From IMG/VR virus record IMGVR_UViG_3300020419_000014, positions 1 to 64,000 of that record: DNA of 64,000 nucleotides; one strand, 5' to 3'. A program made the translations under genes and the position numbers. The notes beneath the pieces are model-generated. The model ran no database searches and was not told where the DNA came from. It saw only the letters and a list, made by a program, of their open reading frames with translations. Position 1 is the first letter of the stretch. The number at the start of each line of letters is the position of its first letter. The stretch is from a virus. Of this stretch, positions 8,156 to 64,000 are shown piece by piece.

Positions 8156-8161
8156 TATAAT
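8133..8161 (+). promoter_or_regulatory. Sigma70-like promoter upstream of queD-like gene
   Basis: TTGACA (8133-8138), 17-bp spacer, TATAAT (8156-8161), a perfect consensus. The predicted start is near 8168. It lies within the end of the preceding gene. Confidence 0.85.
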
Positions 8162-8196
8162 AAGTAAGTATAACATTAGATATCTACGGAGAATAT

Positions 8197-9637: not shown

Positions 9638-9639
9638 CT

Positions 9640-10479
9640 ATGGCAAAGCTAGATAAAACTCAGCATACTAAACAAGAATATAGACGTCTCAAGGCTTTAG
9701 AAAAAGCTAAAAAAAGAGAAGCTAAAGCTGGCATTAAACAACCTGTTATACAACCAGTTAGTATATCAGACGATATTAATATACTATGTGTAAAGCACGG
9801 AACAAAATATTCAGCTGACTATGTTAACAAACTTTACAATATGATCAGTAGACATTGTAATTTACCTTTTAAGTTCTTTTGCTTGACTGATAATCCAAAC
9901 GATATTAATCCTAACGTACATACAATAGAGTTACCTAGATTTTTATCAGGTTGGTGGTGTAAGCCTTATATTTTTAGTGACAAACTTCCTATTCAAGGCA
10001 CAATACTTTATTTAGATTTAGATGTAGTTATATCTAGTAATATAGATAATATGTTTATATACAGCCCAGATGACTGGTGCATAATTAGAGATTTTACAAG
10101 ACACTTGAGACCCGATTGGAAAAAATATAATAGTTCAGTAATTAGATTTAGAAGTGGACAACTTGTAAAACTATGGCAAGATTACTCAAAAGACTATAAA
10201 GGAGTACAAGCAAGATTTTTCGGCGATCAGGATTGGTTGTACGAAGCATCAAACAAAGAAAATATGCCTGCAAAATTATTTCCTGATAATTGGGTTCGAA
10301 GTTGGAAATGGGAAATAAGACGTTCAAAAGAATTCGAGGCTGGTAGAGTAAAAGGTGAAAGGATGTTTAAGGAGATTGAACATGTAGAGCCTCCTAAAGA
10401 CTGTTTAATTGCTGTCTTTCACGGTGATCCCAATCCTCATAACTGTAAAGACCCATGGGTGGTAAATAATTGGCAATGA
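9640..10479 (+). CDS. GT8-like glycosyltransferase
   Basis: 279 aa. A basic coiled N-terminus (about 1-35) precedes a GT-A type domain with ILYLDLDVV, whose D-x-D (Asp126, Asp128) binds metal and nucleotide sugar. Later GDQDWLYE and AVFHGDPNPH fit the GT8 acceptor region and C-terminal His. Starts two bases after kdsA. Likely modifies host LPS or a phage glycan together with KdsA (inference); the sugar is unknown. Confidence 0.75.
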   Translation: MAKLDKTQHTKQEYRRLKALEKAKKREAKAGIKQPVIQPVSISDDINILCVKHGTKYSADYVNKLYNMISRHCNLPFKFFCLTDNPNDINPNVHTIELPRFLSGWWCKPYIFSDKLPIQGTILYLDLDVVISSNIDNMFIYSPDDWCIIRDFTRHLRPDWKKYNSSVIRFRSGQLVKLWQDYSKDYKGVQARFFGDQDWLYEASNKENMPAKLFPDNWVRSWKWEIRRSKEFEAGRVKGERMFKEIEHVEPPKDCLIAVFHGDPNPHNCKDPWVVNNWQ

Positions 10480-12841: not shown

Positions 12842-13204
12842 ATGAACGTTTGTACACTTACAGAATCAGCAAAACAACAAATCAACACAATATGCAAAGA
12901 AAATAACTGTTATGGTATCAGTTTAAACCTTAAAGGTGGCGGTTGTGCAGGTTTTGAGTATGATTGGGGTACTGTACAATCAGCTGATGAAGTAAAACCG
13001 TTAGATATTACAATGGACGCAGGTGATGGAAAATTTGTAATAGGTAACGAAAGTATGATGTTCTTATTTGGCACAGAAATAGATTACGTAAAAACAATAA
13101 TAGGCTCTAATTTTGAAGTTAGAAATCCTAATGCCAAATCGTCATGCGGTTGTGGTATTAGTGTAAATTTTGATATGGATAAACTAGAAGAAGCAGCAAT
13201 ATAA
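12842..13204 (+). CDS. iscA: A-type iron-sulfur carrier (IscA/ErpA/HesB family)
   Basis: 120 aa, usual family length. The three conserved cysteines are present: Cys35 in GGGCAGFEYDW and Cys102/Cys104 in SSCGCGISV. Such proteins carry Fe-S clusters to target enzymes. T4-like marine phages often carry one. In this window possible clients are the radical SAM enzyme and the 7Fe ferredoxin. It is read from a late promoter and sits right before the giant fibre gene, so it may act late. Confidence 0.92.
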   Translation: MNVCTLTESAKQQINTICKENNCYGISLNLKGGGCAGFEYDWGTVQSADEVKPLDITMDAGDGKFVIGNESMMFLFGTEIDYVKTIIGSNFEVRNPNAKSSCGCGISVNFDMDKLEEAAI

Positions 13205-13218
13205 ACGGAGTGCAATAA

Positions 13219-44296: not shown

Positions 44297-45145
44297 TTGG
44301 GTAAAGAACACTTTAAATTTGACTTTGACGAATGGATGGCTGAAGAGCTTATTCATCGTGATGATTGGAAAGATTGGTACGAAGCAATGTGCGAAATCTT
44401 ACCATTATGGGAAGTCGATACTATAGAAAGAGTAGCAGGATTTATTGCTCAATGTGGACACGAGTCCGGCGGCTTTAGAGTATTAAGTGAAAACTTAAAC
44501 TATAGCGCCAAAGCATTGAATACAATATTTCCTAAATACTTTAAACGAGCAGGAAGGGAAGCAAATGAATATCATAGACAACCTGAAAAAATTGCGAACG
44601 TTATTTACGCAAATAGAATGGACAACGGCGATGCATCATCCGGTGACGGGTGGACATTCAGAGGCGGCGGCATTCTTCAGCTTACCGGTAGATACAACTA
44701 CACAGAATTCGGCAAAGCAGTCGACAAAACGCCGGAAGAAGCGGTCGAGTACGTCAGGACCAAAGCAGGCGCATTAGATAGTGCATGCTGGTTTTGGGAT
44801 ACAAATAACATTAATAAATATTGCGACAATCAAGATATTGTTGGAATGACTAAACGTATTAACGGTGGTACTATTGGTTTAGACGATCGTAAGAAACATT
44901 ACTTACATGCATTAGATGTGTTTGGTGGAGATTATGAAGAACCAGAAACAGATTACAATCAAACTATTCGTCAAGGATCACGTGGTCCGTTAGTCGCAGA
45001 AGTACAAGAAAAATTAGATATAACACCAGCTGATGGAATATTTGGTCCAGGTACAGCAAAAATTGTTAAACATTGGCAAAGTTCAAACGGACTTGTTGCT
45101 GATGGTATTGTAGGACCTAAGACGCTGGGAAAGTTACTAGGGTAG
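44297..45145 (+). CDS. Endolysin: GH19 chitinase-type muramidase with peptidoglycan-binding domain
   Basis: 282 aa; TTG start with AGGAG. The catalytic Glu pair of GH19 is in AQCGHESGGF (Glu56) and SENLNYS (Glu65); GDGWTFRGGGILQLTGRYNY and RINGG are further signatures. Residues about 220-282 form a PG_binding_1 domain (LVAEVQEKLDI ... ADGIVGPKTLGKLL). It cleaves peptidoglycan at lysis and begins a cassette with i-spanin, o-spanin and TM proteins. Bases about 44640-44780 are GC-richer than the surrounding gene. Confidence 0.92.
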   Translation: MGKEHFKFDFDEWMAEELIHRDDWKDWYEAMCEILPLWEVDTIERVAGFIAQCGHESGGFRVLSENLNYSAKALNTIFPKYFKRAGREANEYHRQPEKIANVIYANRMDNGDASSGDGWTFRGGGILQLTGRYNYTEFGKAVDKTPEEAVEYVRTKAGALDSACWFWDTNNINKYCDNQDIVGMTKRINGGTIGLDDRKKHYLHALDVFGGDYEEPETDYNQTIRQGSRGPLVAEVQEKLDITPADGIFGPGTAKIVKHWQSSNGLVADGIVGPKTLGKLLG

Positions 45146-50578: not shown

Positions 50579-51256
50579 ATGACTACAAATTACTTTATAC
50601 GTGAACTTGAAACTACTAAATTATTTTACAACAAATACCTTTACAAACTTTTATTGCATAATCCTTTAGTTGCAATTTTTAGAGATAAAAATTTTACATA
50701 TGCTAGACAGCAACTTGATGCACTCCAACTAAGATACGAATCTGGTGACAAACTAAGAATAAACAAACACAGAGAAGTAGTATCTGTAGAACAGTTTGTA
50801 GGTGCAAAGTTTTTACTAACAGAACTAGATACACAAACTGACTTTAAATTACGAATAGAATCTCCAAGAATGGCAATCTATTCTAATGACAAAAAGTGGT
50901 TAGATTACATGAAAACTAAGCCGTTAAAGTTTTTTGAATTCTGGTCTCCTAATACAGATTACGTACATCTTTTACAGAAAAATACTATACTTACAAGTGA
51001 TATAAATTTTGGATATGCATACAAAGTTACTTTTGCTGATAAAATAGATCCTAACTTCTACAAATGGATTGTGAATAACCCTTTTAAAGTAAAGGTAGGT
51101 GATACCTGTTTAGAAAGCATTAAAAAAGGTCAATATGTTAGGGGGTTTTACTGCTATATCAAAGATGATAAAATATTATCATTAATTCACCTTATGATAG
51201 GAGCTCAAATTGCTCGTATAGACAATATAGTATACAAAGCGGTTAAGGATAAATAA
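50579..51256 (+). CDS. Unknown 225-aa protein
   Basis: Soluble, Lys/Tyr/Phe-rich, mixed alpha/beta (YFIRELETTKLFYNKYLYK, KLRIESPRMAIYSNDKKWLDYM, FEFWSPNTDYVHLL). No catalytic motif or TM. The start at 50579 has no clear ribosome site (upstream AAACCCCC). Encoded just before a late promoter and virion genes; its own role is unknown. Confidence 0.55.
   Translation: MTTNYFIRELETTKLFYNKYLYKLLLHNPLVAIFRDKNFTYARQQLDALQLRYESGDKLRINKHREVVSVEQFVGAKFLLTELDTQTDFKLRIESPRMAIYSNDKKWLDYMKTKPLKFFEFWSPNTDYVHLLQKNTILTSDINFGYAYKVTFADKIDPNFYKWIVNNPFKVKVGDTCLESIKKGQYVRGFYCYIKDDKILSLIHLMIGAQIARIDNIVYKAVKDK
51248..51255 (+). promoter_or_regulatory. T4-type late promoter motif GATAAATA, leaderless start predicted
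   Basis: GATAAATA ends 5 bases before ATG 51261, the same distance as at 6069-6076/6082. The start would fall on or near the ATG. Confidence 0.55.
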
Positions 51257-51260
51257 TAGT

Positions 51261-51602
51261 ATGCCGAGTTATAGCGAAATAATATTATCAAATCAAGTAC
51301 ATCCAGGAGACAGTACCAGTGAGACTGTAACTGGAACTAAGTATAAAGGCGATGGATACTATGGTAGATCCGACGGTTTTCATACTGTACAATACAATGT
51401 TTCTGGTTTTAGTGGAACAATTAAGATGCAAGGAACGTTAGCTACTGTTCCTGCAGAAGCAGACTATTTCGATATTACTGGCTCAGAAAGTACAAGCTCA
51501 AATGGCTCATTTTTTAAAAATTTTACAGGAAATTATGTATGGGTTAGAGCTGTTGTAACATATACAGACGGAACAGTACAAAGTATACTATTAAATCATT
51601 AA
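51261..51602 (+). CDS. Small beta-rich virion protein candidate
   Basis: 113 aa of beta-strand-rich Gly/Ser/Thr sequence (KYKGDGYYGRSDGFHTVQYNVSGFSGTI, NYVWVRAVVTYTDGTVQS). It looks like a small Ig- or fibre-head-type domain, as seen in phage decoration or tail proteins. Read from a late motif without Shine-Dalgarno. Starts the terminal virion operon. Confidence 0.55.
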   Translation: MPSYSEIILSNQVHPGDSTSETVTGTKYKGDGYYGRSDGFHTVQYNVSGFSGTIKMQGTLATVPAEADYFDITGSESTSSNGSFFKNFTGNYVWVRAVVTYTDGTVQSILLNH

Positions 51603-51612
51603 GGACGGAATT

Positions 51613-54600
51613 ATGGAAAATTTTATTAGTGTTTCAATACCAAGCAGAAGAGCAAAAAAATCAGTTTTAGAAAAAATGATTGCATCAGCTGGTATTCACT
51701 TAAACGAAGGCGAACCAAACTACGGTGTGTTTCAAGGAGAAGATAAAAATATTATTCTTAAACTTGAACTGCCACAAGAACTGAATAGCAAAGATTCAGA
51801 TATTGTTGCACACAACTTATCTGAAAATTTATTTGATTTAGGTTATGACGATTTTGATATAGAGATTAGTTCTGATCCGTCCGACGAAACTACTCTAGAA
51901 AATACTGACTGGCACACAATTGATGAAGCACCTATACAGATTGTACAAATTGGTCCAAACGGAGAATATGTCAACTTTAACATAGACAAAAGTTTACCTT
52001 CTATAGAGGTCAAAGGCCCAACAGGAAAACCAAGAAGAATTCATGGCACTCCTGCTCAACTTGCTAAAGCACAAGCTGATCTAAAGAAAAAAGGCTCACA
52101 AATTACAAAGCCAATTAAAGCACAAGGCGGTGTACAAGGTGCAACGTTTAACAAAGACGGAAGTATAAACACCGGTGAACCTAAAGATAAAGAAGTAACA
52201 AAAAAACAACCAGGATCAGGTCCTGCACCAGGTAGCGAAGAAGCACTAATGGCTATTGTAAATCAATATGCAAAACCTGGAATGACACTAGCTGATGTTG
52301 ACTCAATGGAAAGAGCCGCAGTTGCTAGTGAAGTACAATCAGCACCTGATGATGCAAATATTTTTAGCAAAGCATTCAAAGGGTTTATGCGGTTTGCAAA
52401 AAGCAAAGATTGGCGTGTAAAGTTTGTCCTAGCAAACGCAGCTGAAAAAATGGAATTACCAGGATTATTTAATTCTCGAGGTAGTTTTATATACATGGCT
52501 GAACAAAGTACCGACGACGAAAGTGGAAACTTTGATGCAGGAGGTCCATCTTCTGCTGCTGGAACAAGTCTAAAAGATTACATGACTCTTGCTAAAGTAG
52601 GACTTTTACCAGCAAGCAAAATAGAAAAAATTCAAAAAGCATTTGCGAATCGACCCGATGATATGAAAACAGTAAATGCTATTGTTGCCGCACAAAAAGC
52701 AGCAACAACTAAAGCACCATCAGGTGACTTACCAGGTGACGGCATGACTGATGTTGAAAGACAAGCTAAACAGGGCGTTGATGCTGCGAAAGCAGGAGTA
52801 GATTCTCCAGGTGCCGATGCAGGTAAGTTTGATAATCTTTCTCAGAAAGAAGCAAGTCAATTACTATTTGATAAGTTAAAACAACTTAGAGAGTTGATGC
52901 GTAACAATCCTGAGCCACGCAGTGGTATTGCAGAAAATAATAAAAAAATATTGATGCGTAGACTACACGGTAATCATATATTTGAAGATGCGGCCGCAGA
53001 CAAGGCTATTGCAGAGTTAATAGCAGACATTGAATTGCTTATGCCGAAAGTAAGTGATGCTAATCAACGTATTGCGGCAGATGCAGTACGTAAAGCTAGT
53101 CCATATGTAAAACGTCACCAAGCTGTTTCAGCTGCAAAACCAGATCTTAAAAAAGCTGATAAAATTAGTAGTGCAGATGATAGAGTTAAAAGACTTAACA
53201 TACCTGGAAATCCATTAGCTGACTTTGCTAAATCAGGTAAAGGTGGATTAGCTAATGATCCTGATGAACAACTAGCAATTGATGAATTACAGTCATATTT
53301 AGGTGTTCCTGTAACAGGAAAATATGACCAAGCAACAAAAGATGCAGTAGCAAAATACCAAAAAGAAAATGGTTTGAAAGTAGACGGCGATGCTGGTCCA
53401 AACACTATAGCAAAAATGATGGGTGTAGATCCACAAGATCTTACAGATCCTAACAGAAGTGATGCAAAACAAAAATCCAAAGAAAAGTCAGCAGCTGATC
53501 AACGTAAAGCAGATGCTAAGAAAGATTTAAAGAACGGTGTTGCTCCAGAGGAAGAACAAACTTTAGAAAATGCAATTAAGTTTAATTGGAAAAAGAAAAG
53601 CTACTATGTAAGTACAACCAAAGTAGAAAAGAATGAAGCAAACAATAATATTGCTTGGGTATTTTATAAAGATGAAGAACTTAAACAAGGACAAAAAGTT
53701 GCTACACTAGGAAGTCACTGGGAAGCACAACTAGAAAAAGAATTAGAGAGAAGAGCGGCAGCAGGAAGTAAAAAAGCTAAAGATGCTTTAGAAATTATTA
53801 ATCCTGAAGGCAAAGATGATCCTAAATTTGCTCCAGCACAAACAGGCGGAGAAGCTGATACAGATGCTGATGTAGATGCTGGTATTGTCGAGGATATATA
53901 TGATGCTGTTAAAACTCTTACAGGAACAGATGAAAAACAGTTATTTGATGCAATTGGCGCTATTAGAGATAATGCACACTACAAGACAATAGCAAGAATG
54001 TTTAAGAAAGAATACCCAAATGCAATCGGCGGAAAATATCCAACACTAGCTATTTGGATGCGAGACGATTTAGAAGGGTGGTTCTTTACAGCAGATGACC
54101 TTAAGAAGTTTGATAGAGAAATGAATAGACTCGGTGTCAACATTAAGAAACCTATTCCAGCAGAAAAAGTTGCAAAAGGTGAAACAGTTAAATCTGGTAA
54201 TAAAACAGTTGTAGGTACAGGTGAACCAAAAGACAAACCAAAAGATGGTGGTAATCCAGGTGGTAATCAATCAACAGCTAAGAAAGATGATAGCACGACA
54301 ACTGATAAGAAAGATGATAGCACAACAACTGATAAGAAAGATGATAGCACAACAACTGATAAGAAAGATGATGGTGGCGAAACAGCTAGTGATGATTCAA
54401 AAGCAAAAAAACCAGAAAAGTTTAGTGCTGAGCAAGAAACTTATATGGGTAAACTAGCAGAAAAAATAATGAGAGCTGGCGACTTTGGTATTACAACAGG
54501 TGGTACAGATGAAAAAGCTATTCAATCTGCATTAAGTATGATAAAAACACCAGGACAATACAAGAAAGTTGATCAATACTTTAAGGACTTAGAAGATAAT

Positions 54601-54846
54601 GAAAAAGGCGTAGATCTTGATACATGGCTCCGTAGTGAATTAAACATGAATACAAGAGACATGAATAGATATTACTGGGCAGAATTACGTAGAATAAAAG
54701 TGCCACATAATATAGGATCTAACGAATTACGAAGACTTAAATCAGATATGGGCGGTAGGGTATTTGATGAAAAAATTGCTCCTTTCTATGATGACAAAGG
54801 TAAGTTTTTACCTAAAGGTAAACCTAAAGCGGACGCGAAAAAATGA
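51613..54846 (+). CDS. 1077-aa multidomain virion protein with peptidoglycan-binding and annexin-like regions
   Basis: Helical, Ala/Lys-rich protein. A PG_binding_1 domain lies at about 552-602 (DELQSYLGVPVTGKYD ... DGDAGPNTIAKMMG). Two related regions, about 757-840 and 940-1065, carry a GTDEK loop and helices (LTGTDEKQLFDAIGAI; GGTDEKAIQSALSMI) that resemble annexin repeats, though homology is not proven. Between them are three 9-aa repeats KKDDSTTTD, a likely flexible linker. It may be an internal or tail protein that touches the cell wall. Ribosome site AAGGACGG; the next gene overlaps by ATGA. Confidence 0.7.
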   Translation: MENFISVSIPSRRAKKSVLEKMIASAGIHLNEGEPNYGVFQGEDKNIILKLELPQELNSKDSDIVAHNLSENLFDLGYDDFDIEISSDPSDETTLENTDWHTIDEAPIQIVQIGPNGEYVNFNIDKSLPSIEVKGPTGKPRRIHGTPAQLAKAQADLKKKGSQITKPIKAQGGVQGATFNKDGSINTGEPKDKEVTKKQPGSGPAPGSEEALMAIVNQYAKPGMTLADVDSMERAAVASEVQSAPDDANIFSKAFKGFMRFAKSKDWRVKFVLANAAEKMELPGLFNSRGSFIYMAEQSTDDESGNFDAGGPSSAAGTSLKDYMTLAKVGLLPASKIEKIQKAFANRPDDMKTVNAIVAAQKAATTKAPSGDLPGDGMTDVERQAKQGVDAAKAGVDSPGADAGKFDNLSQKEASQLLFDKLKQLRELMRNNPEPRSGIAENNKKILMRRLHGNHIFEDAAADKAIAELIADIELLMPKVSDANQRIAADAVRKASPYVKRHQAVSAAKPDLKKADKISSADDRVKRLNIPGNPLADFAKSGKGGLANDPDEQLAIDELQSYLGVPVTGKYDQATKDAVAKYQKENGLKVDGDAGPNTIAKMMGVDPQDLTDPNRSDAKQKSKEKSAADQRKADAKKDLKNGVAPEEEQTLENAIKFNWKKKSYYVSTTKVEKNEANNNIAWVFYKDEELKQGQKVATLGSHWEAQLEKELERRAAAGSKKAKDALEIINPEGKDDPKFAPAQTGGEADTDADVDAGIVEDIYDAVKTLTGTDEKQLFDAIGAIRDNAHYKTIARMFKKEYPNAIGGKYPTLAIWMRDDLEGWFFTADDLKKFDREMNRLGVNIKKPIPAEKVAKGETVKSGNKTVVGTGEPKDKPKDGGNPGGNQSTAKKDDSTTTDKKDDSTTTDKKDDSTTTDKKDDGGETASDDSKAKKPEKFSAEQETYMGKLAEKIMRAGDFGITTGGTDEKAIQSALSMIKTPGQYKKVDQYFKDLEDNEKGVDLDTWLRSELNMNTRDMNRYYWAELRRIKVPHNIGSNELRRLKSDMGGRVFDEKIAPFYDDKGKFLPKGKPKADAKK
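54280..54375 (+). repeat. Tandem 27-bp repeat (three copies plus a partial fourth)
   Basis: Units at 54280-54306, 54307-54333 and 54334-54360, then a partial one; copy 1 differs from the others at one base. In frame they encode KKDDSTTTD. A likely site of repeat-number variation and a disordered linker between two similar domains. Confidence 0.9.
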
Positions 54847-55229
54847 AAATTTTTGAAATAACAGAAACACGTATTACTACAAAGCCAGTTAAAAAAGATG
54901 GTCGTACATATTATAAACATGACTATTCAGATACATTGTTTGCTAGTGAAAAGATGGCTAGAGATGATGAAAAAAGGAAGAAACCTGTTACTACACAAAA
55001 ATTAAGAACATTCGGTGGTAAATCTAGTGACGTTCAAGATTTTAAAGAAGTCACTCCAGAAGAACTTAAAAAAAGGTTAGCTGATATACTTGGTGCGTTA
55101 GGCAACAGTGGTGCTTTACAAAATTTAGAAAAAAACTTTAATCATATGCTAAAACAATTCAAAGGCGATATGGATAACATGGATCAAATGTTAAAGAAAA
55201 AAGAAGATGAACTAGGGTTATCGATATGA
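54843..55229 (+). CDS. Head/internal protein candidate with capsid-targeting-like N-terminus
   Basis: 128 aa; ATGA overlap. It starts MKIFEITET, with an I-T-E that fits a T4-type prohead-protease cleavage site (L/I-x-E). The rest is charged, helical (EELKKRLADILGALGNSGAL ... MLKKKEDEL), without catalytic motifs. Probably packaged in the head and trimmed (inference). Confidence 0.6.
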   Translation: MKIFEITETRITTKPVKKDGRTYYKHDYSDTLFASEKMARDDEKRKKPVTTQKLRTFGGKSSDVQDFKEVTPEELKKRLADILGALGNSGALQNLEKNFNHMLKQFKGDMDNMDQMLKKKEDELGLSI

Positions 55230-55555
55230 GAATCGGTGAATTTACAGATAAAGAAGAATTACCATTTGACGTAGTTGAAGATACACTTGTATTCATGCGT
55301 AATGATCCTATATTTTATCGCAAATATTATTATCCAAGTGTTTGTGAACTAGCAGACTGCCAACGTGCAGGTAAAGATGCAGATCCAAAAAAATATCTTA
55401 CAGCAATGATCGAAATGGGTTGCGATAACTATGTTAAAAAATATAATGTAGGACGTAATTCTGAAGAGGTTTTTACAGCAGAGGATAGATCAAATTTACT
55501 TCAAAGAATTAACGACGAAGAAACAGAGAATATTCGAAAAGGCGACTACACGTGA
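55226..55555 (+). CDS. Small protein with capsid-targeting-like N-terminus
   Basis: 109 aa; ATGA overlap. It begins MRIGEFTDKEE and contains FRKYYYPSVCELADCQ and DNYVKKYNVGRNSEEVFTAEDR. The N-terminus is like its neighbours but the cleavage match is weaker. Two nearby Cys (CELADC) may bind metal. Function unknown. Confidence 0.55.
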   Translation: MRIGEFTDKEELPFDVVEDTLVFMRNDPIFYRKYYYPSVCELADCQRAGKDADPKKYLTAMIEMGCDNYVKKYNVGRNSEEVFTAEDRSNLLQRINDEETENIRKGDYT

Positions 55556-56514
55556 AAATCTATGAAGTTACAGGAACAAACAAAACAGCTTCTTTTGCAC
55601 TAGGTAGGTTAAATCCAGCAACAATTGGACATGAATTACTTGTAAAAGCAATTAAAAAAGAAGAAGGTGATTCTTTCCTGTTCCTTACTGATAGAGCTCC
55701 TAAACTTCCCAAAGATCCACTTACATCACAAGATAAATTAGACTGGGCTCGTAAGAGTTTTAATGGTATAAGTATTGGTCTTGCAAAGACTGTATTAATT
55801 GCGGCTGATAGATTATATAAAATGGGGTACAGAGACGTAGTATATTTAGAAGGCGTTGATCCTGAAAAGCCATTTCCTCTTTCAAAGCTAATTAAAGACT
55901 ACAATGGTGTTGCTAAAGAGTTACATGATTATAATTTTGATAGTATACGGGTAGTTCAACTACCAAGAGATGCAAGTGCGGCTGATGCAACTGGTATGAG
56001 TGGTACAAAGATGCGTGAATATGTAACTAATAATGATCTAGAAGGATTCAAAAAAGGTGTTACACAACTAGCACAACCATATGCAGAAGATGTATTTAAA
56101 AAACTACAAGGCATAATGGGTGTTGACTCTGTAGATAATACAGATATACAAGAAACCGAAATGAAAGATTTTTTCGGTAATACTATTGATCAAAAGGTAT
56201 TAGATCATCCTAATTGGCATCCTGATTTAGCTCCGTTCTTTAAACCTGACGCTTTTGAAAATCACAGACGGGCTATTAAAAAAGCTATTATGAGAGCAAA
56301 GGCTTCTAAAAAGAATGAAGGTGTTTTTGATTTTTTAAACTTCTCAGGTGATGAAATGGAAAAGCAATACATTCCATTTGTAATTAAAAATATACGTCGA
56401 TATGGAGATCGAAGAACAAAGACAATGTTAGTTAAGAAATTTCCTGACATTAAACCCGTTGATGTTAACCGAGCAATAAAACAAGCATTAGAAATTATAC
56501 ACAAGCGAGGTTAG
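55552..56514 (+). CDS. Nucleotidylyltransferase-superfamily protein with targeting-like N-terminus
   Basis: 320 aa; GTG start in a GTGA overlap. After MKIYEVTGT comes SFALGRLNPATIGHELL (18-32), whose T-x-G-H is the nucleotidyltransferase active site, and SGTKMREYV near 150, the second T/S-x-x-R motif. Family members transfer a nucleotide to phosphates (NMN adenylyl- or cytidylyl-transferases). The C-terminal ~120 residues are basic and helical. It may be an NAD- or lipid-type enzyme; the substrate cannot be told. Its N-terminus suggests head packaging. Confidence 0.75.
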   Translation: MKIYEVTGTNKTASFALGRLNPATIGHELLVKAIKKEEGDSFLFLTDRAPKLPKDPLTSQDKLDWARKSFNGISIGLAKTVLIAADRLYKMGYRDVVYLEGVDPEKPFPLSKLIKDYNGVAKELHDYNFDSIRVVQLPRDASAADATGMSGTKMREYVTNNDLEGFKKGVTQLAQPYAEDVFKKLQGIMGVDSVDNTDIQETEMKDFFGNTIDQKVLDHPNWHPDLAPFFKPDAFENHRRAIKKAIMRAKASKKNEGVFDFLNFSGDEMEKQYIPFVIKNIRRYGDRRTKTMLVKKFPDIKPVDVNRAIKQALEIIHKRG

Positions 56515-56517
56515 TCA

Positions 56518-56736
56518 ATGGATGAACTAGAACACATCAAAAAACTAGCTGGTGTTAACGAATTCAAAGGTTATACAGAATATCAAATAGATGAAAATCC
56601 TAGTATAACAGCAGCAGGAATCAAAAAGAAAGAAAAGAAATTAGGGCTTAAACCAGGAGATCCTGATTGGTTTAAATTATGGTTCAGTAAACCATACATG
56701 ACAGGGGCAGCACAATTTAGAGGAAGAAAAAAATGA
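56518..56736 (+). CDS. Small protein with KLAGVNE motif
   Basis: 72 aa. It starts MDELEHIKKLAGVNEF; a near copy (FAKLAGLNEKQ) occurs in the 194-aa protein at 62529. The C-terminal part is basic. It may be a small head-associated protein. Ribosome site weak (GCGAGGT). Confidence 0.5.
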   Translation: MDELEHIKKLAGVNEFKGYTEYQIDENPSITAAGIKKKEKKLGLKPGDPDWFKLWFSKPYMTGAAQFRGRKK

Positions 56737-56972
56737 AAATGTTTCTAATAGTAATTGCAATGATTGCTACTCCGGGTGCGGCAGATACTGATCTATATGT
56801 AATTCAAGAGCCAAACTTTACCCATCCTCAACAATGCTTACAATTTGTTCAAACAAATACGTTTACATTAATAAGTAAAGCAAAATCAGTTTATCCTACA
56901 CAAGAAGTAGAAAATATATACTGTATTACTGAAGAAAAGTTAAAAGTTTTAATTAGTGGAACGCAAGCATGA
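56733..56972 (+). CDS. Small secreted-type protein
   Basis: 79 aa in ATGA overlaps at both ends. N-terminal signal-like stretch (MKMFLIVIAMIATPGAADT), possible cleavage after GAA, then a small domain with two Cys (PQQCLQF, IYCITEE). Its plan is like the 72-aa protein at 35556. Likely periplasmic; function unknown. Confidence 0.55.
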   Translation: MKMFLIVIAMIATPGAADTDLYVIQEPNFTHPQQCLQFVQTNTFTLISKAKSVYPTQEVENIYCITEEKLKVLISGTQA

Positions 56973-59900
56973 AATTTAACGACTTCAAAATTGTAGAAAA
57001 AACTACTGGAAAAAGAGATTTTTCAGCAGATCTTAAACACGGTGAAAAACTGGGCTTGGTTAAAAAACATCGCAGTGGTGAGATTCGTAGTATACAAACT
57101 CCTAAGATTGGTGGCGTACAAGCAAAGCAAACTTTTAGACCTGACAGTACTCCTGGATATCAACAAGTAACATATGATAATCCTAAACAAGGTACAAATA
57201 TTGATGTAAAAGGTTCACCTGAAACAGGCTATTCAACCAGTGCGACACAAAAGGTAGGCGACGTAACACTTGGAGCAAAGCAGAAGTATAGTGGTCAAAA
57301 TACATTTACGGCACAGCACAAAAAGAAAAAATTTAGTAAATCGTTCGACAAAGAAGGCAATCCGATAAAAGAAGACGGACGTATAGTTAAAGGTGTTAAC
57401 ACTACTGCTGATGTTGGCGTTAATGCTATCAAGAAACAAGCGGCCAAGTTTGGAAACAAAGTAGACAAAGACGGTCGTCCACCTACACTTAGTAAAAAAG
57501 TTAAAGGTAAAAGTACAAACGTACTGTTTAATTTAGGATTAGCTGAAAGTAATCGCCAACGTAATTTAATAGATTTTGTAAAGTTTTGTAAAGAGCAATT
57601 AGATCTTAAGTCTAGCCCGCCAATTAAATTTGTAAGTGATACAGAAGATACTACGTTTGGTTATTTTGATAACGACAATAAGAATATTGTAATACAAAAT
57701 ACTGGTAGACATCAAATGGATGTAATGCGTACTGTTGCTCACGAACTAGTACACTATAAACAAGATAAAGTATACAATAGAGAGCTTAACGGAGAAGATG
57801 GCAGTCCAGATGAAAACCAAGCAAATGCACTTGCAGGAGTAATTCTTAGACGATGGGGGCAAAAGAATCCAACATTGTTTACCGAATCGGTTGACGAAAA
57901 CACCCAAAGTAGTGTATACTTTACTAATATGCAAGAACAATTAGGAGAAATTGCTAAAACTACAGAAATATACGTAGATATGGACGGAGTGTTGGCTGAC
58001 TTCTTTGGAGAGTGGACAAAGCTGATGAACGTAGATCATTGGTCAAAAATTGACAATGATGGTCTTCCACAAGCATTACAAAAAATTAGAGATACAGACG
58101 AATTTTGGTTGAAATTGCCGTTGTTACCGCAAGCGAAAGAATTACTGACTTTAATTAAAAATATAAAAGGTGAATACAATATTTGCTCAAGTCCACTAGC
58201 AGATGATCCTAATTCAGAACCACACAAACGTGAATGGATTAAAAAGAATTTAAGTTTCTTTCCGCCAAAAAATGTTTATATTACACATGACAAACCGCAG
58301 TTTGCGAAAAATGCAGATGGCACATCTAATATATTAATAGACGACTTTGGTAGAAATGTTAAGCAATGGGAAGATGCCGGTGGTATAGGGTTTAAGTATA
58401 AAGACCATAAATTTGAACGTACAGCAAAGCAATTACAAAAACACATAGCTGAAGAAAAAATGAGTAAGTCTGATATTAAATCAGCACATAAAAAAGCTGA
58501 CAAACTTAAAAGTAAACCTAAAGCAAAAAAGTCTATATCAAACTGGGCTAAAGAAAAAGGAATGGATCCTGAAGGTGCTATTTACGCAATAGCTATGAAT
58601 CAACAAAAGAAAAAAGCATCTGAATCTTATGCAAGAAGTGAACTTCCACAAATTACAAAAAAACATTTAAAAACATTTCCACATGTTATAGAAACAGCTT
58701 TATTAAAAAAAATTATTCCTGTACAAAAAGAAAGACTAAAAGAAAATTTTCATAAACAATTAAAAAGAATACATAAAGGAATATATAATCCTATTGTTGT
58801 TGATAGTAATTATAAAATAGTTAACGGTCATCATAGATATGATATTATGAAATTAATTGAAATGAAAAAAATTACTGTTGCTAAACTTCCTTTTACTTTA
58901 GAACGTCTTTTAGAAGTGTTAGATCAAAAAAAAAATCTTGACGGTTTACTAACACCACAGCTAAAATCATTACACAAAATTTTTAAACAAAATAAACATG
59001 AGCTACGTGTCGTAGGTGGTGCAGTTCGTGATATTGCTTTAGGTAAACAACCTAAAGATATCGATCTTGCTACTGATGCTACACCTGAGGAGATGATTAA
59101 TATATTTAAAAAAGCAAGTATTAGACATATACCAACAGGAATAGAACATGGTACTATTACCGCAGTTATAGATAAAGAACCATATGAAATTACCACATTA
59201 AGATCAGATGTTGAAACAGATGGTAGACGAGCTAAAGTAAAATTTGTAAGAAACTGGAAAGCAGACGCACAACGTAGAGACTTAACCTATAATGCAATGA
59301 GTTTAGACTTCGATGGAAAGATACATGACTATTTTAACGGCATGGACGACTTGCAAAACAAAGTTAGTAAGTTTGTTGGAGATCCTGAGGAACGCATTAA
59401 AGAAGACTATTTGCGTATACTACGTTATTTTAGATTTCAAGGACGATTAACAAGTCCAAATTGGGAAGAAAATGTAATTAGTGCTGTAAAGAAAAACTCT
59501 AGTGGACTAAAAAATATTAGTTCAGAAAGAGTTTGGCTAGAAATGAGCAAAATACTATCCGGTAGAAATATAAAAGACATTTTAAAATACATGGGCAAAA
59601 CAGGTGTTGCTAAAAATATAGATTTGCCTATAAAAAATGCTAATAAAGTTGTTGACAATGATAACTCAATAATAAACCTAGCAAGACTAGTAGATGACGC
59701 TTCTTTAGCAAAAAAATGGAAGTTTAGTAAAGAAGAACATACTACATTACTTACATTAGTTAATAATAAAGATACTAAACTTACACAAAAATCTGCAGAG
59801 AACTTATTAGTAGACGGCAAGAATAAAGAAATACTTGCTAAACTTGCATTATTACAGGGCGATAAACAACTAGCAATATATATTAATAACTTTGAAGTAC

Positions 59901-60619
59901 CTGTATTTCCAGTCACTGGTAATGACTTAATAGCTATGGGATATAAAAGCGGGCCTGAACTAGGACAAACACTTAACAAAGTAAAATCTGCGTGGAAACA
60001 AAGTAACTTTACAGCAAACAAAGACGATCTTTTGCAAAACTTAAATGAAGATATAAAACCTACTAAACCTAATTTTGAATTTGAGTGGGGTGAAGCTCAA
60101 CGATATCCAGAATTCAGAGAATTAGGCAAAGACGAATGGATTAAACTAGCAAAAAAAGGTAAAATATACACCTTAACTAAAAAAGATATAAAAGATATCC
60201 ATAATACAGATGCTGGCAATATGGGCAGTTTTGAAAAATTAGAAATAGCTAAACAAATAAGAGTATTAGATAAACTTAAAAAAGGCGAATACGAATTACC
60301 AATAGTTGCTATGTATAGCGATGGTTGGTTAGAGTTAGTTGGTGGAAACACACGTCTTACTGCTATGATGGGCATGCAAGGACAAGCTAAGATATGGGTA
60401 TTTAAAGTACCAGACAAGGTTGCAAATTTAGCAATTAAAGAAAACTTTGCAGATGGTAAGAAAAAAGGCAAATCACGTCCTGGCAGAGTCAAACGTTCTG
60501 GTGCAAGTTGCAAAGGATCAGTTACAAGTCTAAGAGCAAAGGCTAAAAAAGCAAGCGGTGAACGTGCTAAGATGTATCATTGGTGTGCTAACATGAAAAG
60601 TGGTCGTAAGAAATCTTAA
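56969..60619 (+). CDS. 1216-aa multi-enzyme protein: metalloprotease, HAD nucleotidase, ParB-like, CCA/poly(A)-transferase, ParB-like
   Basis: Starts MKFNDFKIVEK (I-V-E fits a prohead cleavage site). Domains: HExxH peptidase, HELVH 258-262; HAD-type 5'(3')-nucleotidase, DMDG with Asp337/Asp339 and IDDFG 457-461; ParB/sulfiredoxin-like, NPIVVD and GHHRYD 620-625; class II CCA/poly(A) polymerase, VVGGAVRD 681-688, D-x-D 697/699, RRDLTYNAM 769-777; second ParB-like, LVGGNTRLTAMM 1123-1134; then a basic C-terminal block with two Cys (SGASCKGSVTSLR, MYHWCANMK). It may be packaged, cleaved and injected (inference). ATGA overlap with the gene before. Confidence 0.85.
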   Translation: MKFNDFKIVEKTTGKRDFSADLKHGEKLGLVKKHRSGEIRSIQTPKIGGVQAKQTFRPDSTPGYQQVTYDNPKQGTNIDVKGSPETGYSTSATQKVGDVTLGAKQKYSGQNTFTAQHKKKKFSKSFDKEGNPIKEDGRIVKGVNTTADVGVNAIKKQAAKFGNKVDKDGRPPTLSKKVKGKSTNVLFNLGLAESNRQRNLIDFVKFCKEQLDLKSSPPIKFVSDTEDTTFGYFDNDNKNIVIQNTGRHQMDVMRTVAHELVHYKQDKVYNRELNGEDGSPDENQANALAGVILRRWGQKNPTLFTESVDENTQSSVYFTNMQEQLGEIAKTTEIYVDMDGVLADFFGEWTKLMNVDHWSKIDNDGLPQALQKIRDTDEFWLKLPLLPQAKELLTLIKNIKGEYNICSSPLADDPNSEPHKREWIKKNLSFFPPKNVYITHDKPQFAKNADGTSNILIDDFGRNVKQWEDAGGIGFKYKDHKFERTAKQLQKHIAEEKMSKSDIKSAHKKADKLKSKPKAKKSISNWAKEKGMDPEGAIYAIAMNQQKKKASESYARSELPQITKKHLKTFPHVIETALLKKIIPVQKERLKENFHKQLKRIHKGIYNPIVVDSNYKIVNGHHRYDIMKLIEMKKITVAKLPFTLERLLEVLDQKKNLDGLLTPQLKSLHKIFKQNKHELRVVGGAVRDIALGKQPKDIDLATDATPEEMINIFKKASIRHIPTGIEHGTITAVIDKEPYEITTLRSDVETDGRRAKVKFVRNWKADAQRRDLTYNAMSLDFDGKIHDYFNGMDDLQNKVSKFVGDPEERIKEDYLRILRYFRFQGRLTSPNWEENVISAVKKNSSGLKNISSERVWLEMSKILSGRNIKDILKYMGKTGVAKNIDLPIKNANKVVDNDNSIINLARLVDDASLAKKWKFSKEEHTTLLTLVNNKDTKLTQKSAENLLVDGKNKEILAKLALLQGDKQLAIYINNFEVPVFPVTGNDLIAMGYKSGPELGQTLNKVKSAWKQSNFTANKDDLLQNLNEDIKPTKPNFEFEWGEAQRYPEFRELGKDEWIKLAKKGKIYTLTKKDIKDIHNTDAGNMGSFEKLEIAKQIRVLDKLKKGEYELPIVAMYSDGWLELVGGNTRLTAMMGMQGQAKIWVFKVPDKVANLAIKENFADGKKKGKSRPGRVKRSGASCKGSVTSLRAKAKKASGERAKMYHWCANMKSGRKKS

Positions 60620-60635
60620 AGTGTAGCAAAATCAG

Positions 60636-60642
60636 CTAAATA
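60636..60642 (+). promoter_or_regulatory. Late-promoter-like motif CTAAATA
   Basis: CTAAATA, 18 bases before ATG 60661, with AGAGAGG between. A variant of the late motif; moderate support. Confidence 0.4.
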
Positions 60643-60660
60643 TTAAGAGAGGTAATAACT

Positions 60661-61572
60661 ATGAGATTCAGTGAAATAATAGCAGAAGTTAAATTAGAAG
60701 AAAAATTTAAACTTCAACGTAAAGGTTCTAAAGGGCCAGCAGTTAAAGAAATGCAAAAAATGCTGATTTCTTTAGGTTATTTAAAACCAACATGGACTAG
60801 TAAACGCTCTGGCAAAGAATTTCCTAGCGACGACGGAAACTTTGGTAGCGGAACTGCAAGAGCAGTCAAAGCATTCCAACAAGCAGAAGGACTAAAAGTA
60901 GATGGGCTAGTAGGTGGAAATACTATAAAAGCTATGATGAAGATTGCTGATCGTAAAGAAAAAGATGAATTAGTTTCAAAAAGAGACGCAACAGTAGGCA
61001 AGTCTAAAGCAGAATTAGATAGTATGATTGGCAAAGTTTTAAAGAAAAGAGAAGATAAAAAAATTGCAGATTTAGTTGATCAAAAGATTAAAGGAAAAAT
61101 GCGTAATCCAGAAATGTACGATGATTTAAAAGCATTAATATCTGCCAAAGGCAAAGTAAGTGGCGAAGAATTTGGTAAACTTGCAAGGCAATATGTAAAT
61201 AAAGACCTCGCAAAATACGTAAAAAAATTAGACTTTTCAGGTGCTTTAGATTTTATGCTACAAAAAACAACTATGTTGCCGCCGGCTGAAAGAAAAAATG
61301 TTGTAGGACAAGTTATGGCAATGCGGAATGAAATATTAGCAGTCAAAAAAATGACTCCTGATCAAGCTGTTGCTAAACATGGAGATGATAAACAAAAAGC
61401 TAAAATGGCAGGGTTAAACAAAGAATTAGATAGATTAAACAAAAGAGAAAAAGAAATTGATAACAGAACATTAGACGGTGTACCTGTTGGAGACAAAGCA
61501 AAAAAAGATTTTGAAAAGAAAGTGACACCAAGAACACCATACGATATGGCAAAACAAGGGATGTCAACATGA
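60661..61572 (+). CDS. Peptidoglycan-binding protein with capsid-targeting-like N-terminus
   Basis: 303 aa. The N-terminus MRFSEIIAEVKLEE is very like the T4 internal-protein signal (MKTYQEFIAEA), with I-A-E and L-E-E cleavage candidates. A PG_binding_1 domain follows at about 22-100 (GPAVKEMQKMLISLGYL ... DGNFGSGTARAVKAF ... VDGLVGGNTIKAM). The rest is helical and Lys-rich (100-300). It may be a head-internal protein that meets the cell wall on injection, or a tail protein. Confidence 0.7.
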   Translation: MRFSEIIAEVKLEEKFKLQRKGSKGPAVKEMQKMLISLGYLKPTWTSKRSGKEFPSDDGNFGSGTARAVKAFQQAEGLKVDGLVGGNTIKAMMKIADRKEKDELVSKRDATVGKSKAELDSMIGKVLKKREDKKIADLVDQKIKGKMRNPEMYDDLKALISAKGKVSGEEFGKLARQYVNKDLAKYVKKLDFSGALDFMLQKTTMLPPAERKNVVGQVMAMRNEILAVKKMTPDQAVAKHGDDKQKAKMAGLNKELDRLNKREKEIDNRTLDGVPVGDKAKKDFEKKVTPRTPYDMAKQGMST

Positions 61573-62453
61573 ACATAAGAGATCTTACAGAAGAAGCAAG
61601 TGGAATGGGTACGGCAAGTATTGCTGTAGCACCAGTAGGAGTTGGTGGTATGCAAAAACGTAACCCTGATGGTACGGCCGTAAATGCACTTGATCAAGAT
61701 AATTTACTGGGTGGTACTAAAAAGAAAAAGAAGAAGAAAAAACTCAGTGAACATGAAGGCATAAATACAATAGCAGAAGGAAAAAAGCCGTGGTTTAAGG
61801 ACGGTGTTCCAATGTGCAGTAAAGAATGTTGTGGCACACCTGTTATGGAGTGTACATGCGATGATAACTGTAAACATTGTAATTGTAGTGAGCTTAAAAA
61901 AATGATGAAGGAAAATAATATGTCAGACACTAATAAAAAGGGTTCTTCAATCAAAGAGGGTTTAGCAGATCTAGCACAGGTCGCAGAACGTGATCATGAA
62001 GTGCAAATGGCTAGGGCAGACCTTTATAAAATAGCCAAATATTCAATCAAATTACATGAAATGCTGAAAACAGTATCTGAACAAGAAGGTTTAGAAGGCT
62101 GGGTACAATCAAAAATTACTAAAGCAGCAGACTACATGGGTAGTGTATATCATCACTTAGATTATGATATGAAATTCGCAGAAGAAGTTGTATCAGAAAA
62201 AGCAGTTAAAGAAGGTGACGGTATCTATCATGATTGTGCAAAAAGTTTTAAACACCCTACATACGGTGAGTGTACAGTAATTCCTGGAGAACATACTTTA
62301 TTTGAAGATGGAACAGTTACACACTATAATGCAACATTTACTAGTTGTGGTCAAGAATATATTGTAAACAATGTTCCTATTAATAGAATGACAGACATAG
62401 TATACGAAGGTCATTCACATATGCCAATGAAAAAGAAAAAAGGGAAAAAATAA
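61569..62453 (+). CDS. Cys-rich head/internal protein candidate
   Basis: 294 aa; ATGA overlap. It starts MNIRDLTEEA (L-T-E cleavage candidate), then a Gly/Ala-rich stretch and a long Lys run (KKKKKKKK). Residues about 80-110 are Cys-rich (MCSKECCGTPVMECTCDD, CKHCNC), likely metal-binding. The C-terminal part has EGWVQSKITKAADYMGSVYHHLDYD, a block I associate with marine phage structural proteins, and several further Cys/His. Confidence 0.65.
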   Translation: MNIRDLTEEASGMGTASIAVAPVGVGGMQKRNPDGTAVNALDQDNLLGGTKKKKKKKKLSEHEGINTIAEGKKPWFKDGVPMCSKECCGTPVMECTCDDNCKHCNCSELKKMMKENNMSDTNKKGSSIKEGLADLAQVAERDHEVQMARADLYKIAKYSIKLHEMLKTVSEQEGLEGWVQSKITKAADYMGSVYHHLDYDMKFAEEVVSEKAVKEGDGIYHDCAKSFKHPTYGECTVIPGEHTLFEDGTVTHYNATFTSCGQEYIVNNVPINRMTDIVYEGHSHMPMKKKKGKK

Positions 62454-62455
62454 AA

Positions 62456-62515
62456 ATGTGTAATAATCCAAATTGTAAATGCGACAAATGCACTTGCGAC
62501 GACTGCGGGTGTTAA
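62456..62515 (+). CDS. 19-aa Cys-rich metallothionein-like peptide
   Basis: MCNNPNCKCDKCTCDDCGC has 7 Cys in 19 residues with repeated C-x-C and C-x2-C, and starts three bases after the previous stop; AGGGA lies about 12 bases before the ATG. It resembles the CTCDDNCKHCNC patch of the gene just before it, so it may be a duplicated mini metal-binding unit. Too short for usual gene callers. Confidence 0.5.
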   Translation: MCNNPNCKCDKCTCDDCGC

Positions 62516-62528
62516 ACAGGAGATTAAC

Positions 62529-63113
62529 GTGAGTGATTTTTATGACATAAGTGCAAAGATGAAACAATTATTTCCGTCTAATCCAGCCGCAGATTTAGCA
62601 GCACTACAAGAAATGGCCGGCGCTCCAGTAAAAGAAGATATTAAAGTAGATCAGATTAACGAAAGTGCATCTGTTAAAAAAGGTAGCTTACCAATAGATT
62701 TAGATTTAGAAAGTTTTGCAAAACTAGCAGGACTAAATGAAAAACAAAAAGATGCTGATCAAGTAAGAGGATCAGAACCAGCACCAAGCATGTCTAAACC
62801 AGGTGGTAATGAAACACCACATCCTATGAAGGATAGACTTGTAGGTGATAGCACTGAGAATGACGAAGATGCCGTAGAAGCTATTGTAATTCCATCATCA
62901 GATCCTAGTAAACCTTTTGATCAATTAAAAATACAACTAGCTAAAGGTATGGAACTTGTAGAAGAAGGTTCGAAATTAATAGAAGAAGCACAAACCAAAA
63001 TGCAAGAGATTGCAAGTGATATGATGTCCAAAATGCCAACAGAGCATGTTGGTGAATCTACAAAAAATTCAATCAAAGAAGAACTACTAGCAAAACTTAA
63101 AGCGAGTAAGTGA
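62529..63113 (+). CDS. Acidic head/internal protein candidate
   Basis: 194 aa; GTG start after CAGGAG. MSDFYDISAKMKQLF..., then ESFAKLAGLNEKQ (shared with the protein at 56518) and a long acidic helical region (DQLKIQLAKGMELVEEGSKLIEEAQTK). It resembles scaffolding/core-type phage proteins in composition. No enzyme motif. The stop overlaps the next ATG (TGATG). Confidence 0.6.
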   Translation: MSDFYDISAKMKQLFPSNPAADLAALQEMAGAPVKEDIKVDQINESASVKKGSLPIDLDLESFAKLAGLNEKQKDADQVRGSEPAPSMSKPGGNETPHPMKDRLVGDSTENDEDAVEAIVIPSSDPSKPFDQLKIQLAKGMELVEEGSKLIEEAQTKMQEIASDMMSKMPTEHVGESTKNSIKEELLAKLKASK

Positions 63114-64000
63114 TGCGAGTACTTGAGGTATTAAAGGAAGAAGATAAACCTTTAAGACTTATCAATCCTGATGAGTTAGATATTGTAAATCCAGACGAAA
63201 AACAATTAAAGATTAATAATCCAGAAATTAAAAAAGCCTCTGCACAAGGATATAATGATACTTTTATAAAAAAAGCAAAACGTTTTGGTATGTCAGATGA
63301 CGATATCAAAAAGTTACAGAAAAAATCGACAGCTAAACATGCAGACGGAACACAGAAAAAATGGACTGACCAGTTTAGTACTGCTTCTTGGTATTTAATT
63401 TTTTATGTATCTAATTATCAAAGGTTTAGAAAACTTACAGAAAGTGATATAAAATATTTCTTAGAAGATTATCACCAATCACTTGTAGAAAGAACAACAT
63501 TTAAAACTCCTATGGCTGCTTGGATTATGACCGCTTCTACTGTAGCAAACCTTTTTACAACAAGTCAAAAACCAGAAGGTATTATCAAAGAGTTAAAAGG
63601 TAGAGTACAAAATACATTTGGTATTACTATAGGACCTAGATGGGTGCCTAGCAAACGAGATCAACCAAATCCAAACCATAGAAGTGACTACGAAAAATTT
63701 TTACAGGCTTATGGAGCAAAAGCACTAGCTCCAGGAATTCAAACTATTGCTGAGCCAATTAAGGCTGGAGATATTAAAAAAGATGAAGAATATGTGATTA
63801 TTAATCCTGGAGATACCGACTTTACTAAAATCGGTGCTGAAAACAACTTTAAAGATACTGTTTTTATAGCAACTGGTCCAGGTGAGGGAACAGGTACTGT
63901 TAGACCTACAGCACAATCTAGTGTCTCTACTACTGTGCAGAAAGATCAAACAAAACCATTAACTACATCTGAAGCAAATGCTATTGCACAACAGTTGTAC
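63113..64000 (+). CDS. Virion protein candidate, 3'-truncated by the window edge
   Basis: 296 aa visible, open to the edge. It starts MRVLEVLKEED (L-K-E cleavage candidate), like its neighbours. Middle part helical (YLIFYVSNYQRFRKLTESD ...). From about residue 225 comes EEYVIINPGDTDFTKIGA and VFIATGPGEGTGTV, a small beta module common in marine phage fibre and baseplate proteins. Start overlaps the previous stop. Confidence 0.65.
   Translation, partial: MRVLEVLKEEDKPLRLINPDELDIVNPDEKQLKINNPEIKKASAQGYNDTFIKKAKRFGMSDDDIKKLQKKSTAKHADGTQKKWTDQFSTASWYLIFYVSNYQRFRKLTESDIKYFLEDYHQSLVERTTFKTPMAAWIMTASTVANLFTTSQKPEGIIKELKGRVQNTFGITIGPRWVPSKRDQPNPNHRSDYEKFLQAYGAKALAPGIQTIAEPIKAGDIKKDEEYVIINPGDTDFTKIGAENNFKDTVFIATGPGEGTGTVRPTAQSSVSTTVQKDQTKPLTTSEANAIAQQLY

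Follow-up and report, generated by a model that had tools for sequence, protein, structure and literature searches.

A short N-terminal peptide shared by seven genes of one operon in a marine bacteriophage is probably a capsid-targeting sequence (CTS) of the phage T4 kind, one residue shorter than in T4, that would load enzymes into the head for delivery with the DNA. The operon lies in the 64,000-base stretch analysed here (the window; bases 1-64,000 of the 66,192-base IMG/VR viral record IMGVR_UViG_3300020419_000014) and runs on one strand from 51613 to window coordinate 64540, with a T4-like gp43 DNA polymerase gene directly downstream. The peptide, which we call the tag, has the form M-[K/R]-Φ-x-[E/D]-Φ-(Φ)-x-E, where Φ is hydrophobic. 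Our data demonstrate that the tag is specific to this locus, that unrelated protein bodies stand behind it and that the residue of a T4-type cut site is enriched at its end, in a lineage whose relatives encode gp21, gp22 and a gp23 with a conserved site of the same kind.

Seven genes of one operon share an N-terminal tag

The seven N-termini quoted in a preliminary description of this DNA are all present. They open a 128-amino-acid (aa) protein (54843-55229; MKIFEITE/T, the slash marking a candidate cut), a 109-aa protein (55226-55555; MRIGEFTDKE), a nucleotidylyltransferase of family phrog_3041 (55552-56514; MKIYEVTGT), a 1216-aa multi-enzyme protein and candidate polyprotein (56969-60619; MKFNDFKI), a peptidoglycan-binding protein (60661-61572; MRFSEIIAE/V, with full T4-like spacing), a 294-aa protein (61569-62453; MNIRDLTE/E) and a 476-aa protein (63110-64000, extending past the window to coordinate 64540; MRVLEVLKE/E), all on the plus strand. 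Domain and family matches recovered the nucleotidylyltransferase, the multi-enzyme protein and the peptidoglycan-binding protein that had been named as cargo. The statement that the genes mostly overlap by ATGA holds in part: six of the seven tagged genes overlap the gene before them by 4 bp, 60661 does not, and two of the six overlapping starts are GTG (55552 and 63110), which makes the overlap GTGA there. The GTG start of the last tagged gene (63110) is one codon upstream of the ATG of MRVLEVL.

The tag was searched for as ^M{1,2}[KRNQ]h.[DE]h (h, any of ILVFMYW), a pattern composed after the peptides had been seen; its independent tests are 80 other loci and a glutamate at position 8 or 9 that was not used in selection. 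Counts of open reading frames (ORFs) rest on longest-ORF calls, which are uncurated and in part spurious. In the window, the pattern occurs in 7 of 10 operon ORFs and in 0 of 63 other ORF calls (Fisher, 7e-8). A relative, IMGVR_UViG_3300020442_000007 (G001; 165,479 bases, loci L018 and L019), agrees in gene order and in tags (MKIFEITEDR, MRLNEFTDKE, MKIYEVTGAN, MKFKDIKVKE, MRFSEIIAED, MKLREIYKEE and MRVLEVLEE), with 7 of 11 operon ORFs tagged against 1 of 168 others (Fisher, 2e-9). Its counterpart of the 128-aa protein reads MKIFEITE/D, and that of the 294-aa protein is split into two ORFs, the first tagged MKLREIYKE/E. The sole tagged G001 ORF outside the operon (133916-135301; MQILEVTAKK) encodes 461 aa with hydrophobic stretches and lies a few genes ahead of the head genes and portal gene; a separate CATAAATA box stands 30 bases upstream of it.

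Recurrence in other marine T4-like genomes, which had been suggested as a check, was borne out: the pattern was found around relatives of the 1216-aa protein in 80 further contigs. These module loci are the best 80 of 596 marine viral contigs encoding such relatives, retrieved with six peptide query patterns, one of which, MKFNDFKI, is the tag of the window protein itself. The tag opens 135 of 923 distinct ORFs at most 5 kb from the 1216-aa relative; the more distant ORFs of these contigs give 3 of 496. In contigs retrieved by way of the scaffold gene gp22 (the best 80 of 595, 78 of them usable; one of the query patterns, DESNVIDM, sits just before the RLAG motif discussed below), it opens 1 of 433 distinct ORFs. 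When counted per body cluster, the tag occurs in 21 of 144 against 4 of 136 (P=4e-4). Chance resemblance was ruled out by this operon and locus enrichment, by the per-cluster test and by the unselected glutamate at positions 8 and 9.

Clustering of the bodies, with proteins below 60 aa left out, sorts the 138 tagged proteins into 29 clusters; these proteins carry 133 distinct DNA 27-mers and 129 distinct 9-aa tags. This diversity at the DNA level points to selection on the peptide. Moreover, homologues of the 55226 protein keep the body and swap the letters of the tag within the pattern (MRLNEFTDKE, MKIFEVTEP, MRMDEFSQS and MRLDEFYTD).

The tag resembles the T4 targeting sequence and is often followed by a candidate gp21-like cut site

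Ten residues of T4 IPIII are enough for packaging, gp21 cuts after L/I-x-E, and targeting is governed by residues 4 and 7 and processing by residues 8 and 10, as described in PMC9026906. In all seven tags of the window, hydrophobic residues occupy positions 3 and 6, and often also 7, which correspond to positions 4 and 7 of T4 with one residue fewer after M-K. The closeness to T4 seen earlier in MRFSEIIAE is confirmed by homologues of the 60661 protein (loci L004 and L005), which begin MRYHEFITEA compared with MKTYQEFIAEA in T4 IPIII.

An [L/I]xE at a usable place after the targeting core is present in five of the seven tags (E8, E10, E9, E8 and E9), the number given in the preliminary description; when I3-x-E5 is included, all seven have the motif within the first 12 residues. 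By this wider measure, [LI].E marks 7 of 10 operon ORFs of the window against 8 of 63 others (3e-4). Targeting and cleavage, which had been proposed as functions of one peptide, are thus better kept apart, with a core in 7/7 tags and a usable site in 5/7. T4 IPI is comparable: it starts MKTFKEFTST, with no glutamate at that place, and its first TITE/A, which we take to be the actual cut, lies farther in. A glutamate stands at position 8 or 9 in 92 of the 138 tagged proteins; positions 10 and 11 have it in 10 and 11 proteins, respectively, and each of positions 12-20 in 6.4 on average. [ILVFM]xE8 or hxE9 is found in 89.

The presumed partners of such a peptide are encoded in relatives. G001 has both gp21 (PF03420, E=4e-29) and gp22, and all 31 distinct gp23 N-termini of the lineage have Y[LIM]xE immediately ahead of the conserved shell region. 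The T4 gp23 counterpart of this junction is FLTE/A, presumably the T4 cut. As a positive control, the T4-type pattern retrieved IPII, IPIII and gp61.1 and no others among 278 T4 ORF calls. Gene 61.1 of T4 (NC_000866, 18966-19130, minus strand; MKTFKEFIKED) strictly matches the CTS and is flanked by genes 61 and 41, an interval in which cyanophages encode virion proteins.

Tagged homologues are detected in virions of other phages

The 55552 nucleotidylyltransferase is homologous to S-SCSM1 gp91 and S-CREM2 gp154, each of which was detected in purified virions (PMC9602691 and PMC10665884, respectively); the T4-GC190 family (cytidylyltransferase) was also detected in S-SM1 virions (PMC3037559). 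The N-termini of gp91 (MKSFLQFLKE) and gp154 (MKNFSSFLTE) are exact T4-type tags. Further virion-detected S-CREM2 proteins start MKDFDSFLEE (SAM hydrolase), MKRFDAFLTE (kinase), MKDLHSFLTE (gp13) and MQTFSMFFSE (gp136), and the strict T4 motif is carried by 5 of the 52 proteins of the published S-CREM2 virion table against 1 of 167 others (P=0.003). Taken together, the match to the T4 positions, the 29 body clusters, the unselected glutamate enrichment and a cargo family detected in virions elsewhere support the T4-like targeting peptide that was first proposed.

By gp22 and gp23, the isolates nearest to this virus belong to the jumbo phages of the T4 superfamily, with gp23 identity reaching 70.5%. 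One of them is the RaK2-like CBB, in which 588 ORF calls were examined (the final 22 kb, a repeat copy, left out) and the motif stands at the annotated starts of CBB_299 (MRFSQITED) and CBB_210 (MNKLQKILTE), both of which are in the authors' mass spectrometry (MS) table of 55 (PMC5259590). The pattern had been loosened to Q/N at position 5 after CBB_299 was seen, and a fifth match (16235) was dropped, as it requires a start other than the annotated one.

The S-CREM2 genome also encodes a Cas9-like nuclease reported in virions (OR473000.1, gp12, 7704-10313, minus strand; locus L029), in which a T4-type core (RFASFMAEA) is found near residue 20 and the C-terminus is formed by another CTS-like peptide (KTFRDFLN). 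These peptides make gp12 a possible case of a Cas9-like enzyme packaged in the head.

Two further operon proteins carry a scaffold-like peptide

The scaffold protein gp22 ends at or near RLAG[IL], and in 78 of 78 usable gp22 relatives LAG[ILVM] falls within the ten C-terminal residues. Four G001 proteins contain [KR]LAG[ILV]: gp22, the 72-aa protein (56518 in the window), the 62529 protein and a membrane-like protein at 22571. The module loci hold 62 occurrences of [KR]LAG[ILVM], mainly in the 72-aa and 62529 families, compared with 5.4 in shuffled proteins; the motif is therefore conserved there. In the window, the 72-aa protein (56518-56736, plus strand; N-terminus MDELEHIKKLAGVNE) has a scaffold-like KLAG peptide in place of the tag, and the 194-aa protein (62529-63113, plus strand) has an internal one, FAKLAGLNE. 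Both are without the tag, and a 79-aa protein with a hydrophobic N-terminus (56733-56972, plus strand) has neither peptide. A tblastn search with the 72-aa protein against annotated phages gave no match.

Because two further operon proteins share the scaffold peptide, the set exceeds seven genes. We suggest that the scaffold-like peptide may bring the 56518 and 62529 proteins to the partner of the scaffold.

Candidate cut sites lie at module edges of the 1216-aa protein

The 1216-aa protein contains HELVH (an HExxH metallopeptidase-like motif), a 5'-nucleotidase (NT5C), a ParB-like region, a CCA-adding enzyme, a second ParB-like region and a basic C-terminus. In Pfam, PolyA_pol and NT5C scored above the cut-off and Peptidase_M78 (E=0.006) below it; residues 655-1027 align to mitochondrial CCA tRNA nucleotidyltransferase (E=6e-83). 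Five candidate cuts on the plus strand all fall at module edges: after E327 (QLGE/IAKT, 57947-57949; [LI]xE conserved in G001), before the nucleotidase; after E495 (HIAE/EKMSK, 58451-58453), behind it; after E649 (RLLE/VLDQ, 58913-58915) and E1027 (NLNE/DIKP, 60047-60049), on either side of the CCA-adding domain; and after E1158 (AIKE/NFADG, 60440-60442), before the basic C-terminal module. G001 keeps [LIVM]xE at 5/5 sites.

A broader boundary test used 58 dereplicated proteins of the 80 tagged proteins of at least 250 aa; 43 yielded 227 module boundaries, which were drawn from local alignments between related proteins and are only partly independent of one another. At these boundaries, [LI].E occurs 79 times compared with 33.6 at random places, and [VM].E 58 compared with 24.1, whereas the other classes ([FYW].E, [AGST].E, [KRNQ].E and [DE].E) reach 1.02-1.07 times the random count. 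Once deduplicated, the set has 138 boundaries, at which [LIVM].E remains about 2-fold enriched (63 compared with 32.0; 0 of 300 random sets as high), with other residue classes at 1.06-1.24 times random. The reversed motif E.[LIVM] is also raised at the deduplicated boundaries (63 compared with 39.1, 1.6-fold); therefore, the enrichment is partly one of composition. At the NFADG junction, P3 is L, I, V or M in 25 of 33 deduplicated upstream sequences, compared with 3-12 of 33 at P2, P4-P8 and P10. [LI]-x-E precedes the nucleotidase module in 23 of 27 deduplicated sequences, a result to which we give little weight, since the LGEI block seems to belong to the domain itself. A motif scan at the starts of 'AHK' modules gave no match. 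On these patterns, the tagged multi-domain proteins may be polyproteins that are processed inside the prohead.

Operon head and neighbouring genes

Sequence scanning and homologue comparison located a T4-type late-promoter-like box, GATAAATA, at the operon head (51248-51255, plus strand). The first gene after it encodes an untagged 113-aa protein (51261-51602, plus strand) with 39 homologues among the examined loci. The box stands at the same distance from the start in 10 of 20 listed homologues (L007 and L117 being one record), the other 10 having a called start upstream or a cut piece, so that the box site cannot be judged there. The box ends 5 bases ahead of the 51261 ATG, and a transcript from it would therefore be nearly leaderless. 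The operon is probably transcribed late.

The second gene encodes an untagged 1077-aa protein with a peptidoglycan-binding domain (51613-54846, plus strand), which overlaps the first tagged gene by 4 bp. It has a lysine/aspartate/threonine-rich repeat, TTTDKKDDS, and a C-terminal part unlike that of G001. Another protein with a peptidoglycan-binding segment (44297-45145; weak match at 45020-45139) shows the hydrophobic/Glu core of a CTS in FDEWMAE, at about residues 9-15, and its relatives keep FEEWMAE or FEPWMAE. In the 476-aa tagged protein (63110-64540; 13110-14540 of locus L003), residues 217-285 show 49% identity to a gene for 223 aa (L037, 10860-11531) in the structural region, close to gp23.

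Pfam at E 0.01 gave no family for six of ten tagged representatives; with the nucleotidylyltransferase as query, a viral scan returned zero relatives and a PDB sequence search was likewise empty. A tagged protein of another locus (L127, 4613-5497; MRFSEIVFVHLNERQ...) has a weak PARP match (PF00644, E=1.6e-4, below the cut-off) and may be a packaged enzyme with ADP-ribosyltransferase activity, like the Alt protein that T4 injects.

Discussion

From these sequences we infer scaffold binding, cleavage, presence in the virions of the window phage, injection and a function in the cell. After late transcription from the GATAAATA box at 51248, the tag would bind the gp22-type scaffold core as the prohead forms, so that the tagged enzymes would be trapped inside. 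Where [L/I]-x-E follows, a gp21-type protease would strip the tag and free the cargo; the DNA would then be packaged around the cargo, which would remain in the head and enter the next host with the DNA. The cargo would comprise the nucleotidylyltransferase, the CCA-adding/nucleotidase/metallopeptidase polyprotein, the peptidoglycan-binding protein and others, and our guesses at its roles are tRNA end repair by the CCA-adding enzyme, nucleotide or NAD metabolism, and envelope passage. In the multi-enzyme proteins, modules may be separated by prohead-protease sites: one tag would import a whole enzyme set, and the protease that matures the capsid would cut the imported polyprotein apart ahead of injection. 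More tentatively, and with less than even confidence, we propose that in a large lineage of marine T4-like viruses the prohead is a loading and processing chamber with two entry codes, the N-terminal tag and the [KR]LAG[ILV] copy of the scaffold peptide, in which polyvalent polyproteins are cut by the prohead protease.

Several observations weigh against a targeting function. Two of the seven tags (55226 and 55552) have no usable L/IxE after the core, and no gp21 match was found in the window record, itself a fragment. The virion evidence comes from homologues in other phages, from which presence in the virions of the window phage is extrapolated, and the S-CREM2 authors allow that such enzymes could be contaminants (PMC10665884). 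S-SCSM1 gave no enrichment of the strict motif (1 of 48 virion proteins against 1 of 234 others, P=0.31), its virion proteins gp89, 90, 92, 93 and 97 from the same gene block lack the motif, and HTVC008M has the T4-type pattern in 0 of 19 proteins of the homologous block; pooled with S-ShM2 and Melnitz, the block yields 3 of 53 against 0 of 157 (P=0.015). Of the four motif-bearing annotated starts of CBB, CBB_458 was not reported in the virion and CBB_321 is annotated as structural but absent from the MS table.

Three other explanations were weighed. The tag could be a docking peptide for a complex in the infected cell, such as one of replication or nucleotide supply beside gp43, unrelated to the head. 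The position of the operon immediately upstream of the T4-like gp43 gene would fit this, as would the two tags with no clear cut site and the origin of the virion evidence in other phages. However, docking leaves unexplained the glutamate at position 8 or 9 in 92 of 138 proteins with its gp21-like site, the same kind of tag on virion-detected S-CREM2 proteins and the late-promoter-like box at the operon head; moreover, the direct gp43 neighbours (L003, 14620-15161) have no tag. We consider docking unlikely. Slightly less likely again is that the proteins are ordinary structural or tail-associated parts and the motif a general virion assembly peptide rather than a tag of injected cargo. Peptidoglycan-binding domains could act at the cell wall, and part of the 63110 protein recurs in a gene close to the head genes; however, the CCA-adding enzyme (655-1027), the nucleotidase and the nucleotidylyltransferase appear intact and have no known structural role, and the T4 proteins that bear the tag are described as internal and ejected (PMC9026906; PMC12373910). 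A translation effect or gene duplication, which A/T-rich early codons and the overlap of six of seven starts might suggest, is very improbable and was rejected: untagged 56733 has the same overlap in the same operon, tags are diverse (133 27-mers and 129 9-aa forms among 138), hydrophobic positions use codons of I, L, F, Y, V and M, and 29 body clusters include homologous bodies with different, swapped tags of one pattern.

The T4-kind targeting sequence that we favour has precedents. The T4 tag, and its use for spotting internal proteins in T-even phages, is already known (PMC9026906; PMC12373910). Like T4 IPI-IPIII and Alt, the window proteins begin with a short peptide that combines a pair of hydrophobic residues with acidic ones and [L/I]-x-E; the bodies behind it are unrelated, and the phages encode gp21, gp22 and gp23. 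Unlike in T4, the tag is one residue shorter, two of seven have no evident cut site, and, whereas the T4 proteins are mostly small and basic, the tag opens seven adjacent genes, including that of a 1216-aa multi-enzyme protein. Ejection proteins of the phiKZ and SPN3US type have larger propeptides and a different cut motif. These giant phages carry many internal ejection proteins whose propeptides are cut after Glu by a gp21-like protease (PMC9026906).

Among cyanophage virion enzymes (the T4-GC190 cytidylyltransferase; NMNAT, SAM hydrolase, kinase and Cas9-like nuclease of S-SCSM1 or S-CREM2), the nucleotidylyltransferase is homologous to ours; these enzymes were detected in purified virions, several have a strict T4-type tag, and the passages that propose their entry into the host mention no targeting sequence. 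Polyvalent proteins of phages and conjugative elements are multi-domain proteins predicted to be packaged and delivered, with release ascribed to an embedded metallopeptidase (Iyer et al. 2017, PMC5512222). They too combine metallopeptidase-like, ParB-like and nucleic-acid enzyme domains in one polypeptide; unlike them, the module junctions of the window protein carry a prohead-protease-like [LIVM]-x-E, and a T4-type tag is present, none being described in the cited passages. Our search of open-licence papers found none joining the T4 tag, virion-borne enzymes and polyvalent proteins in marine T4-like phages.

Injected phage proteins are usually known only through virion proteomics of cultured phages. 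A readable tag would make the injected cargo listable from sequence, including that of uncultured marine viruses, and would explain how enzymes currently labelled 'hypothetical' or 'auxiliary metabolic' are delivered: nucleotidylyltransferases, CCA-adding enzymes, nucleotidases, the PARP-like protein and the S-CREM2 Cas9-like nuclease. Their action would fall at the very start of infection, the time at which counter-defence, or repair of tRNA or NAD, would count most. If the module junctions are prohead-protease sites, they would provide a second release mechanism for polyvalent proteins.

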